In this document: positions 2,731 to 25,664 of the stretch, in pieces
How positions within the stretch are numbered: the stretch's first letter is position 1
Layout: each line of letters begins with the position of its first letter
Notes under the pieces: model-generated
Databases searched by the model: none
What the model was told of the DNA's origin: nothing
The model's input: only the letters and a program-made list of their open reading frames with translations
Source: Enterococcus malodoratus ATCC 43197
GTDB taxonomy: Bacteria > Bacillota > Bacilli > Lactobacillales > Enterococcaceae
Assembly (NCBI RefSeq): GCF_000407185.1
Contig: NZ_KE136481.1
Span: 699,136-763,135, forward strand
Length of the DNA: 64,000 bases
Direction: 5' to 3'
Translations under genes and position numbers: made by a program

Positions 2731-4278
2731 TTAATCACCTAAATCAAACAGCGCATCTTGGCTGCGACGCTCACTTGATCCTGCTTCCGGCAGCTCCTCT
2801 TTCAGTGAAGACAACCAGTCTTCCAATTCTTCTTCGTTTAGGTTGTAGTTGCGAATAAGAAACTGTTTCTTAGGCATTACACCAGCTGTAACAGCTTTTA
2901 GGTCATTCTCCAACTGTTTATCGCGATCGACAAATATACCATCCTCAAAACTAACTATTACTAAATAACTATCATATTCAATAGAGAATAGCGGTTTCTC
3001 ACTTTCAAACATTTCTCCGTATCCTGCAAGTTCAAAAATAGAATGAATAAGCTCATTGATAACTTTTTCAACCATAGTCAAATAGCTTGAACGTGTCTGA
3101 TAAGTCATGGAATTGTTAGAAACAATCTCAGTGGCCGTTTTAATGCCGTCGTCTGCATAGTTCATCGAACCCACTGACAAACCAACCTGAACCTCGAACT
3201 CTTTAATCAGATGGCTAATAGCATCCTTATATTGAACGGTTCGAATAGGTGTAGTGATGTCCTGCACCCCTACTTTCTCAAGTGCACCGTATACACCAGC
3301 GAATACGTTCTGGTCCGTGTCGAACATTGGTGGGTGTGTCTCATCCGTTTTAAGGAATTCCGCTGGCACAACAACACGCCGCTGCCCTAACTGAATTTCC
3401 CAAGCAAACTGATCGTGTGTTGTGTTAATCGTATCTAAAATCTCTTTTGAGTTATCCACAATGCCGGCACCTAATGGGCTCTCTAACGATTTATTGTTAG
3501 CTCCAGGCGTTCTGAAGTAAGCAAAAAGCGGTCTCTTCAAGCCTTCTAGTGTGACTGTTTCAGCTAAGTCAGGATATAGAATCGACAGTGGAACTTGCTT
3601 TCCAACAACGTTACTGTTGTCAGATTTGTAAAGCTCATTACTGATAACATACTTTTCGTCTTGCCACTCATGAAATTCGAGGAGCGTGTAGTAGTAATTT
3701 GTGTCACCTTCAGTTTGAATTGATTTAGTAGCAATAGCACACTCACTAACTTCGTTTGTATTTGAACGTAACGGGTAAAACTGATCTGCACGAATCCACG
3801 AGATTTTAATCTTATCTCCATCAACGTAAGGCCGCATAGCGAATCCTCCTGCAGCGATACCTTTCTCAAGATTCAATTCGAATAAATTATAGAAATTGTT
3901 GTCGTATAATGTTTGTTCCAAAAATTCAGATGCTTCTTTAATCTCTTTAGAAACATCCTTTCTATCATTTGGATCGTTCAGCGTAACTTTACATTTTTCA
4001 TTGAAAATGATACTAGCCAATCGCCTCGCAGCAGTCTTAGTCACGTTCAATGATTTAAATTCTCGTTTTTTATTGTCGCCAAATGAACTTTTATAGTTGA
4101 TATCCGGAAATAAATTAGCATAATATTTGAAGTTCTCCGCTATTCGAACGTATTCCCGCGAATCAATCCCAATTTTTGGGTGATCAGTGATCTTCGCTAT
4201 ATCTTTTCCGTTAACGCTCATGTTCACACTATCAACTCCTCTCTTGAACATATTTTTGATTGTTTGAATTACTCCCAT
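2731..4278 (-). CDS. Phage portal protein, A118 type
   Basis: A 515-residue protein beginning MGVIQTIKNMFKRG, a characteristic A118-family portal start. Portals form the dodecameric ring through which DNA enters the head. An upstream in-frame ATG at 4293 would lie inside the terminase gene. The ATG at 4278 has an AGGTGA site five bases before it and is preferred, leaving an 8-base gap to the terminase stop. The C-terminus is rich in Glu and Ser. The order small terminase, large terminase, portal, minor capsid is standard. Confidence 0.9.
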   Translation of the reverse strand: MGVIQTIKNMFKRGVDSVNMSVNGKDIAKITDHPKIGIDSREYVRIAENFKYYANLFPDINYKSSFGDNKKREFKSLNVTKTAARRLASIIFNEKCKVTLNDPNDRKDVSKEIKEASEFLEQTLYDNNFYNLFELNLEKGIAAGGFAMRPYVDGDKIKISWIRADQFYPLRSNTNEVSECAIATKSIQTEGDTNYYYTLLEFHEWQDEKYVISNELYKSDNSNVVGKQVPLSILYPDLAETVTLEGLKRPLFAYFRTPGANNKSLESPLGAGIVDNSKEILDTINTTHDQFAWEIQLGQRRVVVPAEFLKTDETHPPMFDTDQNVFAGVYGALEKVGVQDITTPIRTVQYKDAISHLIKEFEVQVGLSVGSMNYADDGIKTATEIVSNNSMTYQTRSSYLTMVEKVINELIHSIFELAGYGEMFESEKPLFSIEYDSYLVIVSFEDGIFVDRDKQLENDLKAVTAGVMPKKQFLIRNYNLNEEELEDWLSSLKEELPEAGSSERRSQDALFDLGD

Positions 4279-4286
4279 GATTTCAC

Positions 4287-5612
4287 CTACCATTTCAGAC
4301 CTAGATCGCTGAGATTATCTTTTACAAAGTATTGAAACTGGTCACATGTATGATCATCAATTTTGATAACTTTTGGGTCGTCAGACTGCAATGTATCTTC
4401 ATCCCACCGATAATCCCTGTGCTCTTTAATAAATATTTTGTTGGCTTCTGTATCCAAATAAAAAAACCTACCCTGAGCGAGTAAGTTTTGTACATAGTCA
4501 ATCATGTCAACCTTCTTTGCTTTAGCAACGGGGTGGAAAGCTACCCCAAAGTCTTTATAATATTGATTCTTTAACGCGCCTTCCGCGGAATCAATCGTGA
4601 TTTTATAAGCGAACTTGTTGTATTCCGTCTGACACTTTTCAATAAAATCATGTAGATCTTTTGCCAATTCATCGGGCGCTTTTTTATTTATCTTTCCATC
4701 TGGTGAATAGTAGTACGTGTCCAACAGAATCACATTGTTCTTTCTAGTGATGGCGTAGCAACCACACGTTGTAGCTGATATTTGATGCCCACTATCAATG
4801 GAAAAACAAATTTGAGTAATATAGTCATCTTCTGGTAATTCGTCCAAAGAGTTAAAATGAGTCATATTATATATAAGAGTACCAAGACCAATTACTTCAC
4901 CTAAATAAAGCCACTTGTAATAGTCTTCGTCATTGTCACGATAAGTTTGAATGAGTTTTAATTGTTGTGATTCGGTAAAACCCAATTCATCATCTAAGTA
5001 AGTTGAATGGTCTACTAAATGATCATCCAATTCTTTGCATTTCTCTACCCATTCGTTTACCCAGTCATAAGGATTCTTAGGAGGATTCCATGAATAGTAA
5101 ACTTTTACTTGATCTACCCATTCAGAACGCTGACGAATAAATGTAGCGTTGGTTTGGTCAAATACTTCACTACTCTGAAAATTAGCAGCTTCTTCATACC
5201 ACAGTGAGATAATATCGCCGATAGCATTAGATTTAAGCTTCAAAGGATCATCAACCCCATAGAAGTAAAACGCCGATCCAGTCCTCTTATGAATAATAGT
5301 CAACGGTGACATTCGGTATCTGAACTCATTTGCAACGCCCAACATATTTAAAGCCCACTTGATTTGCAAATATACAGCATCACGCAAATATTTATGCTGA
5401 CTCATCATGCAAACTACATTGACTTTATGCTTTGCTTGCGTATGTTTCTTCATTTCAGTCGCAAGTTTTAAGCTGATAACTGACGACTTAAATGACCCAC
5501 GCCCACCTTTCATTAAGATATATGGACACCGTGTGTGCCACATCTTATAAAAATGAGGGTTAATCATTCCAGTTAGTTTAATCTGAGGCTTCGTCTTGGC
5601 TTTCAGCGCCAT
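4287..5612 (-). CDS. terL: Phage terminase large subunit
   Basis: A 441-residue packaging motor. Residues ~35-45 contain a Walker A-like GGRGSFKSS, followed by a hydrophobic/acidic Walker B-like stretch (ISLWYEEA) and a C-terminal nuclease half with acidic residues (FSIDSG, ITIDSAEG). The length and layout fit the PBSX/A118 group. The start at 5612 is chosen because GAGAGGTGG lies seven bases upstream; the longer reading from 5633 has no site. It overlaps the small subunit gene by 35 bases. Confidence 0.93.
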   Translation of the reverse strand: MALKAKTKPQIKLTGMINPHFYKMWHTRCPYILMKGGRGSFKSSVISLKLATEMKKHTQAKHKVNVVCMMSQHKYLRDAVYLQIKWALNMLGVANEFRYRMSPLTIIHKRTGSAFYFYGVDDPLKLKSNAIGDIISLWYEEAANFQSSEVFDQTNATFIRQRSEWVDQVKVYYSWNPPKNPYDWVNEWVEKCKELDDHLVDHSTYLDDELGFTESQQLKLIQTYRDNDEDYYKWLYLGEVIGLGTLIYNMTHFNSLDELPEDDYITQICFSIDSGHQISATTCGCYAITRKNNVILLDTYYYSPDGKINKKAPDELAKDLHDFIEKCQTEYNKFAYKITIDSAEGALKNQYYKDFGVAFHPVAKAKKVDMIDYVQNLLAQGRFFYLDTEANKIFIKEHRDYRWDEDTLQSDDPKVIKIDDHTCDQFQYFVKDNLSDLGLKW

Positions 5613-6387
5613 TCGAATCCACCTCTCTTTCAATTATCGGAATATCATCAATAATTACCGTCTGTTCTTCTGTTGGATCATAGCCGTCATCTAACTGCTT
5701 CAATTGAGCTTTTGCTAAGTCAACCTGAGCGCTCATCAATTCTAGTTTCTTACGTCGTTCATCTTGCTCATCTGCAATTAAAACGAACTGTTTAATTAAA
5801 TTTGCAAGAGTTGCCATAGCCCGTGATTGAGCGTTCATAAAGTTCGCTTGCTTGTCCCAGGCGTATTGAAACTGACGAGTTACTTTAGTTTGTATGGGTT
5901 TGCCAGTGTCACGATCGATAAACATAGGGCTCACTTCCGCACTAGTAATATCTTCTGTATGATCAAATTCAGATCGAACATTCATTATTTTTTGAGATCT
6001 TATGATGGCTGTGTACTGTATCATTATGTTATTCCAAAGGATGTCTGATGGTTCACTGGTATAAAGCTCCTGAATGATTTGTCTTGTATCGTCGGGGAGC
6101 CAGTTAGCAAACAAGCCGTGGCTCACAGCATTTTTATTTCTAGGCGGCGGTTTCCCTCCAGAATTTCCTTTCGCATTGTTATTGCCGCGCATTGAATCGT
6201 AACGCTCTTTTTGATTCGGAGCGCTCCGTTTCGTTTCGTCGTCCCATTTATCCTCAGATTTCCATTTTCTAACGGTTGATGCAGATACACCCAACTCTTC
6301 AGCGATATCTTTTAGAGGCTTCTTTTTATCTGATTCGAGCCATCTTTTATGCGCTTCATCGCGCAACGGATTCCGTTGTCTAGCCAT
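5578..6387 (-). CDS. terS: Phage terminase small subunit
   Basis: A 269-residue protein with an N-terminal helix-turn-helix (LKDIAEELGVSASTVRKWKSEDKW, near residues 25-48), a Gly/Asn/Pro-rich linker, and a helical C-terminal half ending in acidic residues. This is the layout of YqaS/PBSX-type small terminases that recognise the packaging site and recruit the large subunit. It is the first clearly identified head-packaging gene after the large RNA block and precedes terL with an overlap. Confidence 0.9.
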   Translation of the reverse strand: MARQRNPLRDEAHKRWLESDKKKPLKDIAEELGVSASTVRKWKSEDKWDDETKRSAPNQKERYDSMRGNNNAKGNSGGKPPPRNKNAVSHGLFANWLPDDTRQIIQELYTSEPSDILWNNIMIQYTAIIRSQKIMNVRSEFDHTEDITSAEVSPMFIDRDTGKPIQTKVTRQFQYAWDKQANFMNAQSRAMATLANLIKQFVLIADEQDERRKKLELMSAQVDLAKAQLKQLDDGYDPTEEQTVIIDDIPIIEREVDSNGAESQDEASD

Positions 6388-6794: not shown

Positions 6795-6812
6795 TTAAAT
6801 CAGCTCCTTATA

Positions 6813-6910
6813 TTGTCCTGTAAGCGTTACAATGATATAATCCCTTTAGGGTGAATCCTTTAAAAGTTTGTTTTTCACTTGGCCATCGTGTAAACGGTGG
6901 TCTATTTTTT
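6813..6910 (+). ncRNA. Short plus-strand transcription unit A
   Basis: A clean promoter, TTGTCC (6813-6818), 17-base spacer, TATAAT (6836-6841) with a TG extension, is followed by a ~60-base segment. A weak stem (GTGAA with TTCAC) precedes a strong hairpin GGCCATCG-TGTAAA-CGGTGGTC (6881-6902) ending in TATTTTTT. No ORF lies inside. It runs opposite to all surrounding lytic genes. Promoter and terminator are seen directly; expression is inferred. Confidence 0.6.
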
Positions 6911-6913
6911 GTA

Positions 6914-6995
6914 TTGAAATATCATTTCTGTAATGATAATATTTTTATACTTGTTACATTGAGGACTGTTGCGGAAACAGTAGCCCTCTTTTTTT
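6914..6995 (+). ncRNA. Short plus-strand transcription unit B
   Basis: Promoter TTGAAA (6914-6919), 17-base spacer, TAATAT (6937-6942, TG-extended), followed after ~18 bases by a 28-base hairpin GAGGACTGTTG...CAGTAGCCCTC (6961-6988) and seven Ts. It lies directly behind unit A in the same direction. The RNA would be only about 45 bases, essentially a terminator hairpin with a short 5' tail. Confidence 0.5.
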
Positions 6996-7000
6996 GTGCA

Positions 7001-7030
7001 AAATAAAAACAGTCTCACGAGGAGACTGCT
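7001..7030 (-). terminator. Terminator after the 25-codon ORF
   Basis: Minus strand CAGTCTC-CTCGT-GAGACTG followed by TTTTTATTTTGC, one base after the stop codon of the short ORF at 7,029. Confidence 0.75.
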
Positions 7031-7106
7031 ACTTCTTCAACTTCTTTTTCAATTGTTCTAATTTCTCAGCGTCGGACTTCTTAATGATTTCGGATAGTTT
7101 AAACAT
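7029..7106 (-). CDS. Short ORF, 25 codons, basic helix
   Basis: Starts at ATG 7106 behind GAGGAGG at good spacing and reads MFKLSEIIKKSDAEKLEQLKKKLKK. The peptide is Lys-rich and would form an amphipathic helix. A terminator follows the stop directly, so the ORF has a complete translation and termination context. It lies just downstream of the large structured RNA and may be read from the same transcript. Confidence 0.5.
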   Translation of the reverse strand: MFKLSEIIKKSDAEKLEQLKKKLKK

Positions 7107-7125
7107 TTCATTCCTCCTCAAAATA

Positions 7126-7850
7126 AAAAAACGCTTAAGCGATCTTGATTATGTATTAAGCAACCTACACGAGCTTTCGCCATCCTACACCGCCTATCCT
7201 CGGTTGCTACACCATTAGTTTAAATTTCAGCTGGCACTAATGAGCCTACATCAATGCTCCCCTAACCTACAACTGAGAGCGTCTCACGTCTGAGATAGTG
7301 TTTTATGCCTTTTAACTGAGTCCCAGCACGCTGGTAAATGCAGCCAATCAATCGGCATCCGATAAGATTGATTGTTTCCGTAGGTTCTTTATTGACGTGA
7401 TGAGGAGTCGAACCTCACGTTATCCTTTTCACCGCCGTAATGCGACTACACGTCCACCGGAGGAGCTACCTCCTAGCATATGCTTTCGGGTCGGATACTT
7501 AGCGTTGGCCAGTTTACTAAGTCCTCCCTAAGTCACTGGCAAGGAATCAAACCTTGCTCATCGGGAAAGAGTCGTCACCTGTCAATCCCTTAATAAGCTC
7601 CAACGCCCTACGTTTTTAGCATTGGCTACTTATGCGTTAATCCTTCCGCCACAGTGACATAAAGACGGCACGTGAAGTTTAAAGGAAGAGGAGCTATTCA
7701 CTTCCTTCTATATTTTTGTGTGTGCCGTCAGATCGTTAAGAATAATTACGAGAAGAGGCTGTTCACCTCCTTCATATATTCTTTATTTGTTGCGGCCTGT
7801 GCAGCAGACCACAATTTATTTCAACAGCTAAACTGCTGTATCCATACTAT
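7126..7850 (-). ncRNA. Large structured RNA, candidate GOLLD/ROOL-type phage RNA
   Basis: This ~720-base block between the ArpU regulator and the packaging genes has no credible gene but many helices on the minus strand. Examples are 7792-7799 with 7805-7812 (8 pairs, 5-base loop), 7664-7671 with 7722-7729 (8 pairs) enclosing 7682-7688 with 7701-7707, 7532-7538 with 7652-7658, 7459-7463 with 7469-7473, 7394-7399 with 7449-7454, 7346-7352 with 7367-7373 and 7159-7165 with 7202-7208. Two T-arm-like hairpins (7539-7557; 7401-7417) resemble tRNA but the rest of each does not fold as a tRNA. TGTAG recurs five times within about 110 bases near the 3' end. A promoter lies at 7,856-7,885 and a small palindrome plus T-tract at 7,127-7,142. 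Size, lack of coding, and location in a Lactobacillales prophage match the giant ornate RNAs GOLLD and ROOL. The class assignment is inference. Confidence 0.6.
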
Positions 7851-7855
7851 TTCAT

Positions 7856-7885
7856 AATATAATTCTAACACCTTTTTCCGAACAA
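7856..7885 (-). promoter_or_regulatory. Promoter for the large RNA / late region
   Basis: Minus strand TTGTTC (7880-7885), 18-base spacer, TATATT (7856-7861), with an overlapping TATTAT. It lies just downstream of the ArpU regulator stop and upstream of the first helix of the structured RNA. It may be the late promoter, but no ArpU-binding sequence is known to me to test this. Confidence 0.5.
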
Positions 7886-7906
7886 AAAGGGCAGAAAAAG
7901 GGCAAT

Positions 7907-8323
7907 TTATTTTGTCACGATTAATTTTCCATCTCTGTATACATCAGCGAACTCTAATAATGCTTCTGCTTTTAGATCTTTAATGCTGCGTTCTGAGTAT
8001 CCTAGTTCTAATCCGATTGCAAAAGCGGTCAGTTTTTCATTTTCACAAAAGGTCATCGAGATGATTTCTTTGCTTATTCGTGAAATACGGTTTAACGCTG
8101 CGTTTATTTCGTTCAATTCATTTTCTGCATCCACTCTGATGCACGTAGCGTCTTCTGATTTATTTGTATATGAACTCGGCGTTCTCGGCATATCGCTTAT
8201 AATTGGTGATCGCAAATTTATCTCGTCCTGTCCTGCGATCCTACTCAAACGACGGTATGAAGCTAGTATTCGTTTTGCTTTGAATTTTGTTTCTCTTACA
8301 TCTATCTCTTCGAACAGTTCCAA
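7907..8323 (-). CDS. ArpU-family late transcription regulator
   Basis: A 138-residue protein with a helical N-terminal half and a C-terminal sigma-like helix-turn-helix (FAIGLELGYSERSIKDLKAEAL, residues ~103-125). ArpU/RinA-like proteins switch on packaging and lysis genes late in infection. Its position immediately before the late promoter and head genes supports this role. The plus-strand ORF over the same bases is a shadow. Confidence 0.82.
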   Translation of the reverse strand: MELFEEIDVRETKFKAKRILASYRRLSRIAGQDEINLRSPIISDMPRTPSSYTNKSEDATCIRVDAENELNEINAALNRISRISKEIISMTFCENEKLTAFAIGLELGYSERSIKDLKAEALLEFADVYRDGKLIVTK

Positions 8324-8337
8324 GGCGATCGCTCCTA

Positions 8338-8396
8338 TGCTATAATATTATGGATGAGATAACGTTTAGCACTGAGCGAAAGCTTGGTGTTTTTTT
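8338..8396 (+). ncRNA. Short plus-strand transcription unit C
   Basis: TGC-TATAAT (8338-8346) is a consensus extended -10. About 23 bases later comes CACTGAGC-GAAA-GCTTGGTG (8370-8389), an eight-pair stem with a GNRA-type tetraloop, then seven Ts. It starts 17 bases upstream of, and diverges from, the ArpU-like gene. The RNA would be ~45 bases. Confidence 0.5.
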
Positions 8397-8397
8397 G

Positions 8398-8491
8398 TGA
8401 TATAATCGTTGTGAGCTAGGCTTTTCCTTCAATGGGCGCAAGCATATTTCAACTAGCTCAGGGACTGTTATGTCGGGTAACAGTCCTTTTT
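8398..8491 (+). ncRNA. Small RNA unit D (GAGCTAG family)
   Basis: TGA-TATAAT (8398-8406) abuts the T-tract of unit C. The RNA opens with GAGCTAG (8413-8419), which pairs with CTAGCTC (8453-8459) to close a ~33-base loop. A terminator follows: GGACTGTTA (8462-8470) with TAACAGTCC (8478-8486) and five Ts. The same plan and the same closing stem occur at 10,644 and 10,742. A second hairpin with GAGCAGCC/GGCTGCTC lies at 8,492-8,518. Confidence 0.68.
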
Positions 8492-8519
8492 AGAGCAGCC
8501 AGTGGTGGGCTGCTCTTTC

Positions 8520-8806: not shown

Positions 8807-9858
8807 ATTGTAAAATTAAGCTAGACAACTAAAAAAGCCATTTGTGCTACACTCAAAATAGTTCTGACCAAAGAATTATAAGGAGTGAGTACAAATGACC
8901 TATACCCATCTTACAACGGATGAACTTGTAATGATAGAGTCTTATTTCAAAATAAATCAATCTGTTGCGAAAACTGCGCATTGCTTGAATCGTTCAAGAC
9001 AAACGATCCATAAAGTATACCTATTCTTCAAGCAAGGAAAATCAGCCTTAGAATACTATCAACAGTATAAGAAAAACAAATCAAACTGTGGTAGACGCCC
9101 GCTTGTTTTACCCGAGGAACAATCAGAATATATTCAAAGAAAGGTTGTTCAAGGATGGACACCCGATGTGATTGTTGGTCGTGCAGCGTTTCCTATTCGT
9201 TGTTCTGCTCGTACCATTTATCGTATGTTCAAAAAGGGGCTATTTAATCCTTCTGACTTACCGATGAAAGGCAAGCGTAAACCGAATGGACATCAAGAAA
9301 GGCGTGGAAAACAAGCTTTCCGCCGCTCTATTCATGAACGTGAAAAAGATTATAGCCAATTCTCAAATGAGTTTGGTCACCTTGAAGGTGACACTATCGT
9401 AGGTCTGAAACATAAAAGTGCTGTAATTACCTTAGTTGAACGATTATCAAAAGTTATCATCACATTGAAACCGTGTGGTAGACAAGCGATTGATATTGAA
9501 AAAAAATTAAATCATTGGTTTGAATCTGTACCGAAAAATCTATTCAAATCCATCACTTTTGATTGTGGAAAGGAATTTTCAAATTGGAAACAAATCAGTA
9601 ATGCCAATGATATTGCCATTTATTTCGCTGATCCAGGAACGCCGTCTCAAAGAGGCCTAAACGAGAATTCTAACGGATTGTTACGTAGAGATGGTTTATT
9701 GAAATCTATGGATTTCAATTCAGTAGATGAATCTTTTATTCAATCTGTCACATCTAAACGAAATAATATTCCTAGAAAATCACTGGATTATCGAACACCT
9801 TTGGAAGTATTTTTGAGTTACGTAAGTATTGATGATTTGTCTAACTTAATTTGACAAT
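8807..9858 (+). mobile_element. IS30-family insertion sequence
   Basis: The 1,052-base element is bounded by 22-base inverted repeats, left at 8807-8828 (ATTGTAAAATTAAGCTAGAC...) and right at 9837-9858, differing at two positions. It holds a single transposase gene whose stop lies inside the right repeat, which is normal for the family. The ends are placed from the repeats; no clear 2-3 base target duplication was identified, so boundaries could shift by a base or two. Confidence 0.85.
8895..9854 (+). CDS. IS30-family transposase
   Basis: A 319-residue protein beginning MTYTHLTTDELVMIE with an N-terminal helix-turn-helix (AKTAHCLNRSRQTIHKVY, residues ~22-40) and a DDE integrase core. HLEGDTIVG (~residue 163) supplies the first Asp, SITFDCGKEF (~220) the second, and GTPSQRGLNENSNGLLR (~255) the Glu with the family's typical surroundings. 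The frame is intact and full length, with AAGGAGTG before ATG. It is similar in style to enterococcal IS30 elements. It appears functional. Confidence 0.93.
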   Translation: MTYTHLTTDELVMIESYFKINQSVAKTAHCLNRSRQTIHKVYLFFKQGKSALEYYQQYKKNKSNCGRRPLVLPEEQSEYIQRKVVQGWTPDVIVGRAAFPIRCSARTIYRMFKKGLFNPSDLPMKGKRKPNGHQERRGKQAFRRSIHEREKDYSQFSNEFGHLEGDTIVGLKHKSAVITLVERLSKVIITLKPCGRQAIDIEKKLNHWFESVPKNLFKSITFDCGKEFSNWKQISNANDIAIYFADPGTPSQRGLNENSNGLLRRDGLLKSMDFNSVDESFIQSVTSKRNNIPRKSLDYRTPLEVFLSYVSIDDLSNLI

Positions 9859-25593: not shown

Positions 25594-25664
25594 AGCGGGT
25601 GACGAGAATCGAACTCGCGACGGAAGCTTGGGAAGCTTCTGTTTTACCACTAAACTACACCCGC
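25594..25664 (-). tRNA. tRNA-Gly (CCC anticodon), prophage attachment site
   Basis: The 71-base gene folds fully: acceptor GCGGGTG/CACCCGC, D-arm GTTTAGTGGTAAAAC, anticodon stem GAAGC/GCTTC with loop TTCCCAA (anticodon CCC), and T-arm with TTCGATT. CCA is not encoded. Its 3' end faces the prophage and lies ~100 bases from the integrase, so this is the probable attR/attL side. The matching core at the other prophage end is outside the window. Confidence 0.93.

Follow-up and report, generated by a model that had tools for sequence, protein, structure and literature searches.

A modular structured RNA at the start of a prophage late operon in Enterococcus malodoratus, in a slot that can also hold ROOL

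Here, we present an analysis of a structured RNA region in Enterococcus malodoratus ATCC 43197, located at positions 7126–7850 on the minus strand of a 64,000-nucleotide (nt) stretch of contig NZ_KE136481.1 (positions 699,136 to 763,135; this whole stretch is the window), between the gene for an ArpU-type late regulator and the terminase genes of a prophage. An earlier note, made from the letters alone, had proposed a structured RNA here that was either of the GOLLD/ROOL class or new, and our analysis confirmed that the structured RNA is real. It is well supported that the RNA specified by this region, which we refer to as the array, is non-coding and modular and opens the late operon, its leader hairpins being followed by exchangeable structured modules in a fixed order and by a terminator; it is likewise well supported that ROOL is one possible filler of the slot between leader and terminator. 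Comparisons of homologous sequences bring out the anatomy of the array, its module order and mosaicism, covariation in module X, conserved synteny and the slot shared with ROOL, and they place the window RNA with the large structured phage RNAs, apparently in a family that is neither GOLLD nor ROOL. The array extends over approximately 7125–7850 and is composed, from 5' to 3' in the RNA, of the following parts:

7790–7838, minus strand: leader hairpins A and B (minimum free energy and centroid folds)
7731–7784, minus strand: leader hairpin C with AAGGAGGTGAACAGC, a Shine-Dalgarno-like motif (z −4.30, 0/200 shuffles as good)
7664–7729, minus strand: leader element D, in which a GACGGCAC/GTGCCGTC closing helix encloses a second hairpin with GGAAGTGAATAGCTCC (z −4.93, 0/200)
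7532–7658, minus strand: module T1, a tRNA-Leu-like mimic (acceptor GTCACTG/CAGTGAC, Leu-type D-arm, T-arm)
7459–7528, minus strand: module V1, with hairpin GGAGGTAGCTCCTCC at its end (sequence comparison and folding)
7394–7454, minus strand: module T2, a tRNA slot, occupied here by a degenerate element that resembles a tRNA and retains the acceptor (GACGTG/CACGTC) and the T-arm
7264–7386, minus strand: module X (covariation; 147.8 bits with covariance model R1, which was built from the window X among other sequences)
7208–7263, minus strand: linker with TGTAG copies (z −0.20, structure unsupported)
7160–7207, minus strand: module Z (30 distinct Z sequences found by pattern)
7125–7158, minus strand: common 3' end beginning AATACATAATC and intrinsic terminator (by eye, weak CGCTTAAGCG-T7 form)

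Homologues of the array are scattered and incomplete. With blastn, 10 of 50,697 phage records and 4 of 72,556 plasmid records matched in part, and pieces of the array were present in 15 of 60 whole genomes of relatives, its own genome included. Matches outside the own genome were always partial, and reading them revealed the modular organization. A 19-base T1 pattern occurred in 49 stretches of viral contigs and in nine of genome contigs, all nine from Enterococcus; X patterns occurred in 12 and 35 stretches of viral contigs, and the pattern of the V-T2 junction was present in 3 of 20 genomes of the genus. Based on 31 distinct arrays parsed first and then 56 distinct arrays parsed from 155 loci (by regular expressions, keeping arrays cut by contig ends and dropping identical or contained copies), the arrays run from the leader through T1, V, T2, X, Y, Z, and further small modules to the terminator, with every module optional. 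Module order, tallied by first occurrence for 14 of the 15 pairs of six modules, was never reversed in the 56 arrays, of which five contain two T1 modules. From first anchor to terminator, the 31 arrays measure 85–965 nt, and near-empty versions with leader and terminator exist (L004, L010, and L016).

The arrays are also mosaics. A second prophage of this genome (L017), without V1, T2, and X, has a T1 that matches the window T1 at 126 of 127 positions. Compared with another array (L003), the window differs at 3 of 70 positions in V1, 1 of 61 in T2, and 2 of 123 in X, and carries another T1. Alignments repeatedly end at the borders of X and at those of the T1 and T2 scaffolds. After removal of nine of the 118 alignment ends that lie near query ends, 39 of the remaining 109 fell at most 6 nt from one of 12 module borders, compared with 22.4 expected and a maximum of 37 in 2000 draws, the alignments not being independent of one another.

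Searching 148 genomes of the order with a covariance model of X alone matched two, the own genome and a genome of another genus (G173). Taken alone, the latter match is weak (E 1.4e-4, one genome); at this site, T1 and a V-type hairpin are followed, in the order seen in the arrays, by a called tRNA-Lys, a reduced X, and a terminator, and then by a small terminase gene (PF03592). T1, X, and Z are also found among the tRNAs of EFP01-like lytic phages, outside the packaging operon described here. In the tRNA cluster of EfV12-phi1, T1 lies near the phage transfer-messenger RNA (tmRNA; L032, 1844–2194; RF00023, 122 bits; ARAGORN tag AKNEELLAVA).

The relation of the array to ROOL is most direct in one genome (G009), where two loci agree at 191 of 200 leader bases and have the terminator core in common; one of them (L018) then carries T1-V1-T2-Z and further pieces, and the other (L030) carries ROOL. 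In an E. faecalis element (L127), ROOL (3506–4084) is followed by T1 at 4095, T2 at 4273, and a different terminator, and in EFP01, the modules that come after ROOL (2288–2874) are T1 (at 2888), X (at 3006), and Z (at 3145). True tRNAs also occur behind ROOL-like blastn matches: in EFDG1 and EfV12, tRNA-Met follows after 16 nt, and in EF24C, the next annotated tRNA is a tRNA-Asp approximately 100 nt on. In Revolver, by eye only, a short element with an acceptor and a T-arm follows such a match. A scan for aberrant T-arms in eight lytic-phage loci missed this element and returned four others, two of which are the same place in EfV12, one being annotated there as a pseudo-tRNA. ROOL was present in 1 of the 20 genomes of the genus.

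The window RNA itself is matched by no Rfam family. At gathering thresholds, the only Rfam match in the whole window is a tRNA-Gly at 25594–25664, so that the covariance check with GOLLD and ROOL called for by the earlier note came out negative. A permissive search of 6800–8500 (E ≤ 5) gave five matches, none of them to GOLLD, ROOL, tRNA, or tmRNA; these candidates (Ref1C, rliB, SQ2397, CRISPR-DR33, and DGCR5; E 0.21–2.1) lie far under their gathering scores, and we took them as chance. Membership in ROOL (RF03087; gathering score 99.1 bits) is rejected, the window RNA being unmatched while the positive controls in relatives (L030, L031, L034, and L127) score 246–269 bits. Nor does the window RNA match the conserved 3' domain in the GOLLD model (RF02032), for which there was no positive control; this model matched none of the 148 genomes of the order, a count that carries no weight because the controls were silent too. 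By location, the window RNA would pass for ROOL, since it lies in a prophage late region, contains tRNA-like modules, and has homologues in tRNA clusters. Of the two options left open by the earlier note, "new" is the better one; its suggestion of the ROOL class is right in part, in that ROOL fills the same slot elsewhere and is followed by T1 in some phages and elements. A divergent GOLLD or ROOL, for which size, late prophage position, nearby tRNA-like sequences, and the shared slot could be adduced, has next to no probability in our estimate: neither model matches even at E ≤ 5, relatives' ROOL scores well, and ROOL and T1-X-Z lie side by side in one phage and are therefore different things. 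The earlier note would have given up its structured RNA had both a covariance hit and covariation been missing; it holds because covariation was found in homologous phages.

T1 belongs to the tRNAs in part, with an acceptor stem, the D-arm of one isotype (Leu), and a T-arm; in the window, its extended anticodon arm is without a 7-nt loop, and the variable arm is long. Neither ARAGORN nor the Rfam tRNA model (RF00005) called a cloverleaf with an anticodon in the window T1 or T2. The two T-arm hairpins that the earlier note had seen in sequences not folding as tRNAs were indeed found, one in each of these modules. Among 52 distinct T1 sequences of 75–248 nt (required to have at least 6 of 7 acceptor and at least 5 of 6 T-stem pairs; 16 of the 68 passing were dropped because their start was not of the T1 type), the acceptor, D-arm, and T-arm are common, the middle is hypervariable, and ARAGORN called a tRNA in one. 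Replacements in the T-stem remain paired, and D-loop and T-loop types co-occur, in related sequences whose counts are not independent events. The T1 D-arm pattern occurs at eight places in the own genome: two are arrays, in which no tRNA is called, and the other six are all tRNA-Leu (two of these, on contig C4, match the positions of two on C3). Because the pattern outside the arrays in this genome is always part of a tRNA-Leu, we regard T1 as a tRNA-Leu-like mimic. The T that follows the acceptor in 42 of the 52 sequences would be expected to hinder leucylation.

The T2 slot is more variable in content. In relatives, its occupant is tRNA-Lys(UUU), tRNA-Ile, or an element that resembles a tRNA and has a nominal UUA or UCA anticodon, and a tRNA was called in 8 of 12 distinct T2 sequences, the window T2 not among them; these 12 have exactly complementary acceptors, which left out at least L005, L037, and L094 (G-T pair). 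The T2 acceptor of L127 reads GGCGTG/CACGCC versus GACGTG/CACGTC elsewhere, a compensated change. The elements with UUA or UCA anticodons, which ARAGORN calls as tRNAs (L018 1586; L046, minus strand, 3969; L048, minus strand, 687; L078 385), would nominally read stop codons, and their loop is unusual.

Folding supports a structured minus strand. Compared with dinucleotide shuffles, the minus strand of 7126–7850 folds with z −3.64 (0/20 shuffles as good) and the plus strand with z −1.44 (1/20). The helices spanning approximately 120 bases that the earlier note had described on the minus strand were recovered, with the T1 acceptor stem spanning 127 nt and the closing stem of X 123 nt. When eight pieces were each folded alone and compared with 200 shuffles, leader hairpin C, leader element D, and T1 (z −3.56) were clearly non-random, with no shuffle as good for any of them; V1 (z −1.63, 14/200), X (z −1.71, 12/200), and Z (z −1.85, 9/200) were marginal by energy alone, and T2 (z −0.46, 51/200) and the linker (76/200) folded no better than chance. 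Module X has compensatory changes across homologous phages and a conserved paired structure. In relatives, 24 distinct closing helices, selected for complementarity, surround a leader motif such as that in element D, with the sequence changing and the pairing kept. The leader hairpins of the window (7664–7784, minus strand) and of relatives bear within their closing helices a motif, AAGGAGGTGA in its window form, that we take to be complementary to the anti-Shine-Dalgarno sequence; such hairpins could bind ribosomes. The earlier note had also counted TGTAG five times near the 3' end, and there are six copies in 7126–7850, five of them between 7169 and 7271 (mononucleotide shuffles average 0.9, and 1 of 2000 reached six). 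We rejected TGTAG as a unit of its own, two of these five copies being the 3' strands of the closing helices of X and Z.

The array lies among genes of the late region, the nearest of which are:

7907–8323, minus strand: ArpU-family late (packaging/lysis) transcription regulator, upstream neighbor (TIGR01637, 104.6 bits, cut-off 43.1)
7848–7906, minus strand: putative ArpU-dependent late promoter (by eye)
5578–6387, minus strand: terminase small subunit, downstream neighbor (PF10668, 78.2 bits)
4287–5633, minus strand: terminase large subunit (PF04466/PF17288)

The packaging operon therefore follows as the earlier note had stated, with a portal (PF05133) and a minor capsid gene farther downstream. 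Its claim of a preceding promoter fared less evenly: by eye, two 11-nt TGCCC iterons (7883–7893 and 7894–7904) and a −10-like box near 7853–7863 are present, and relatives have the same layout with different iterons and TATGATAG-like boxes, but a sigma-70 promoter scan listed nothing on the minus strand. Similarly, a terminator scan does not list the window array's own terminator. A protein-coding reading was rejected: the three open reading frames (ORFs) of at least 40 amino acids that overlap the array (74, 44, and 61 amino acids) are all on the plus strand and none is on the minus strand, in line with the earlier statement that no gene is visible. In the E. faecium elements pA4694_P2 and E8440 plasmid 3, the array is flanked by annotated ArpU and terS genes, with one extra gene upstream in pA4694_P2 and extra small genes downstream in both, according to gene tables that list protein genes only.

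How the array is transcribed and processed and what its modules finally do, we infer as follows, in a tentative explanation to which we give a little less than an even chance. An ArpU-dependent late promoter would make the RNA in quantity. RNase P and the enzymes that act on tRNA 3' ends use the tRNA parts kept in T1 and T2. These modules would keep what such enzymes read, i.e., the acceptor stem, the T-arm, and the elbow contacts, with the anticodon arm free to change or be lost, and they would most likely serve as processing joints, at which cutting turns the flanking V, X, Y, Z, or ROOL into released or capped stable RNAs. Once free, the modules may play a structural part in the niche, related to translation, where phage tRNA clusters and ROOL occur. 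We favor processing joints because the enzyme-read parts are kept, the part needed for translation is replaced, and some phages have a true tRNA behind ROOL. According to the accessible text of a commentary on Ling et al. (PMC12515178), the octamer stays intact when a suppressor tRNA precursor is fused behind ROOL, and the ROOL-T1 arrangement found in nature agrees with this. We also speculate, with clearly less confidence, that Enterococcus phages possess a general RNA-cassette platform, in which true tRNAs, tRNA mimics, and ornate RNA domains, ROOL among them, are exchanged in a fixed order within one slot that has a promoter, a leader, and a terminator; T1 behind ROOL would be cargo on the ROOL cage, like the engineered 3' tRNA fusions, and its anticodon arm the host-adapting part. 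If true, this doubtful but possible scheme would resemble protein-domain shuffling, in RNA.

Several observations weigh against the modular RNA with processing joints. By eye, array L040 breaks the order, with a Y-like module after Z that the Y pattern of the order tally does not recognize. In the sequences read, CCA is not encoded after T1, the base following the acceptor being T in 42, A in seven, G in two, and C in one of the 52. In one T1 subtype, the D-loop lacks GG and the T-loops (e.g., GGCAGTR) do not resemble those of tRNA, an observation that speaks against a simple signal for tRNA processing. Complementarity was part of the selection of T1 and T2, and their near-invariant acceptor stems yield little covariation. 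The energies of V1, T2, X, and Z folded alone are weak, as given above; for X, two of five covariation measures (changes on both sides, 117/500; pair types, 258/500) are not above shuffles, and helix 4 is 72.9% paired. Finally, ROOL in L030 is without T1 behind it, and three other ROOL loci in the family (3 of 39 genomes) are without array modules within 1.5 kb on each side.

Among the rival explanations, T1 and T2 could be decoys or substitutes directed against host enzymes that attack tRNAs, such as the anticodon nucleases of abortive infection, with the constant scaffold as bait and the hypervariable anticodon arm and swappable T2 tRNA tracking the enemy. The constant scaffold and hypervariable middle of T1, the alternation of tRNA-Lys(UUU), tRNA-Ile, and mimics in T2, the modules within lytic-phage tRNA clusters, and the mosaic exchange, which is typical of defense conflicts, would all fit; however, a late promoter is late for counter-defense, and V, X, Y, and Z, which are not tRNA-like, are left unexplained, and we consider this account unlikely. 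Still less probable is a late-operon leader that controls transcription by hairpins letting RNA polymerase pass the array and terminator into the terminase genes, as in antitermination by put RNA, with the modules as passengers. It would account for the persistence of leader and terminator in L004, L010, and L016 and for the position behind ArpU and before terS, but not for the ordered modules, the tRNA mimics, or the copies in lytic-phage tRNA clusters outside the operon.

The array could also be a relic without RNA function, namely a degenerate phage tRNA cluster that persists as a hot spot of recombination before the packaging genes. The window T2 is degenerate, the near-identical acceptor stems could serve mainly as recombination homology, and several modules fold with marginal energy; the compensatory changes in X, the paired T-stem replacements, the module order, and the leader closing helices that change yet remain paired (albeit selected for pairing) make this very unlikely. 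A DNA element, i.e., a cos or pac site with repeats that merely happen to fold, would suit a position just upstream of the terminase genes, but we judge it extremely improbable given array lengths of 85–965 nt, the replacement of the array by ROOL, T1-X-Z in a lytic-phage tRNA cluster, and base pairs that covary in X.

Compared with known systems, the modular array resembles ROOL in being a large ornate phage or prophage RNA and in occupying, in one Enterococcus prophage, the same leader-terminator slot, and T1 follows ROOL in EFP01-like phages and the E. faecalis element. In the accessible text of PMC12191101, ROOL is described as a single compact domain comprising 16 paired regions, whereas the window RNA is a string of exchangeable small modules. 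The accessible part of PMC12286853 describes ROOL as often near tRNA islands and GOLLD as conserved in its 3' region, less so in its 5' region, and sometimes carrying tRNAs in the linker, a layout in a giant prophage RNA that the array echoes; this description is without tRNA mimics with swapped anticodon arms or a fixed module order. The tRNA clusters of Herelleviridae phages are similar in that those of EFP01-like phages include T1, X, and Z among their tRNAs and differ in that 51 of the 52 T1 are not called as tRNA and V, X, Y, and Z are not tRNA-like. tmRNA likewise has a tRNA-like domain inside a longer RNA; unlike tmRNA, the array has neither a covariance match to RF00023 nor a tag frame. 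For lnc001 and lnc002 of staphylococcal phage K, compared here by description alone, the authors suggest a likeness to GOLLD and ROOL based on proximity to tRNA genes and abundant transcription, and modularity is not part of the accessible description (PMC9241854). We found no description of the modular locus in the literature searched, the coverage of which was partial and does not establish absence from print; the accessible text of Cousin et al. (PMC5643018) holds nothing on tRNA or terminase.

ROOL and GOLLD form RNA cages of unknown function, as stated in the accessible part of PMC12286853. Its occurrence as an exchangeable filler, next to tRNA mimics and interchanged with a sister array within one genome, offers a concrete way in for ROOL, since the role of T1 or the small modules in the slot would constrain that of ROOL. 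The arrays also point to a shuffling of RNA domains through recombination at tRNA-like joints. They come in dozens of natural variants in hosts that can be cultivated, and the near-empty versions could serve as controls.

A few further observations concern the surroundings of the array and its relatives. In the window, a transposase-like ORF (8895–9854, plus strand), which we take to be an IS30-type insertion, lies upstream of the ArpU gene and has rve and HTH_38 matches under the Pfam cut-offs. In a same-genus relative, Rfam rli28, a small RNA of Listeria, matches with 134 bits near an array-like terminator (L011, 1705–1884, minus strand). In a viral contig (L136, 1857–2144, minus strand), a small protein is encoded beside the array with a Cas2 match of 22.8 bits, just below the NCBIfam cut-off of 24.5, and a similar-looking ORF lies beside the array in another viral contig (L142, 2230–2511, minus strand).
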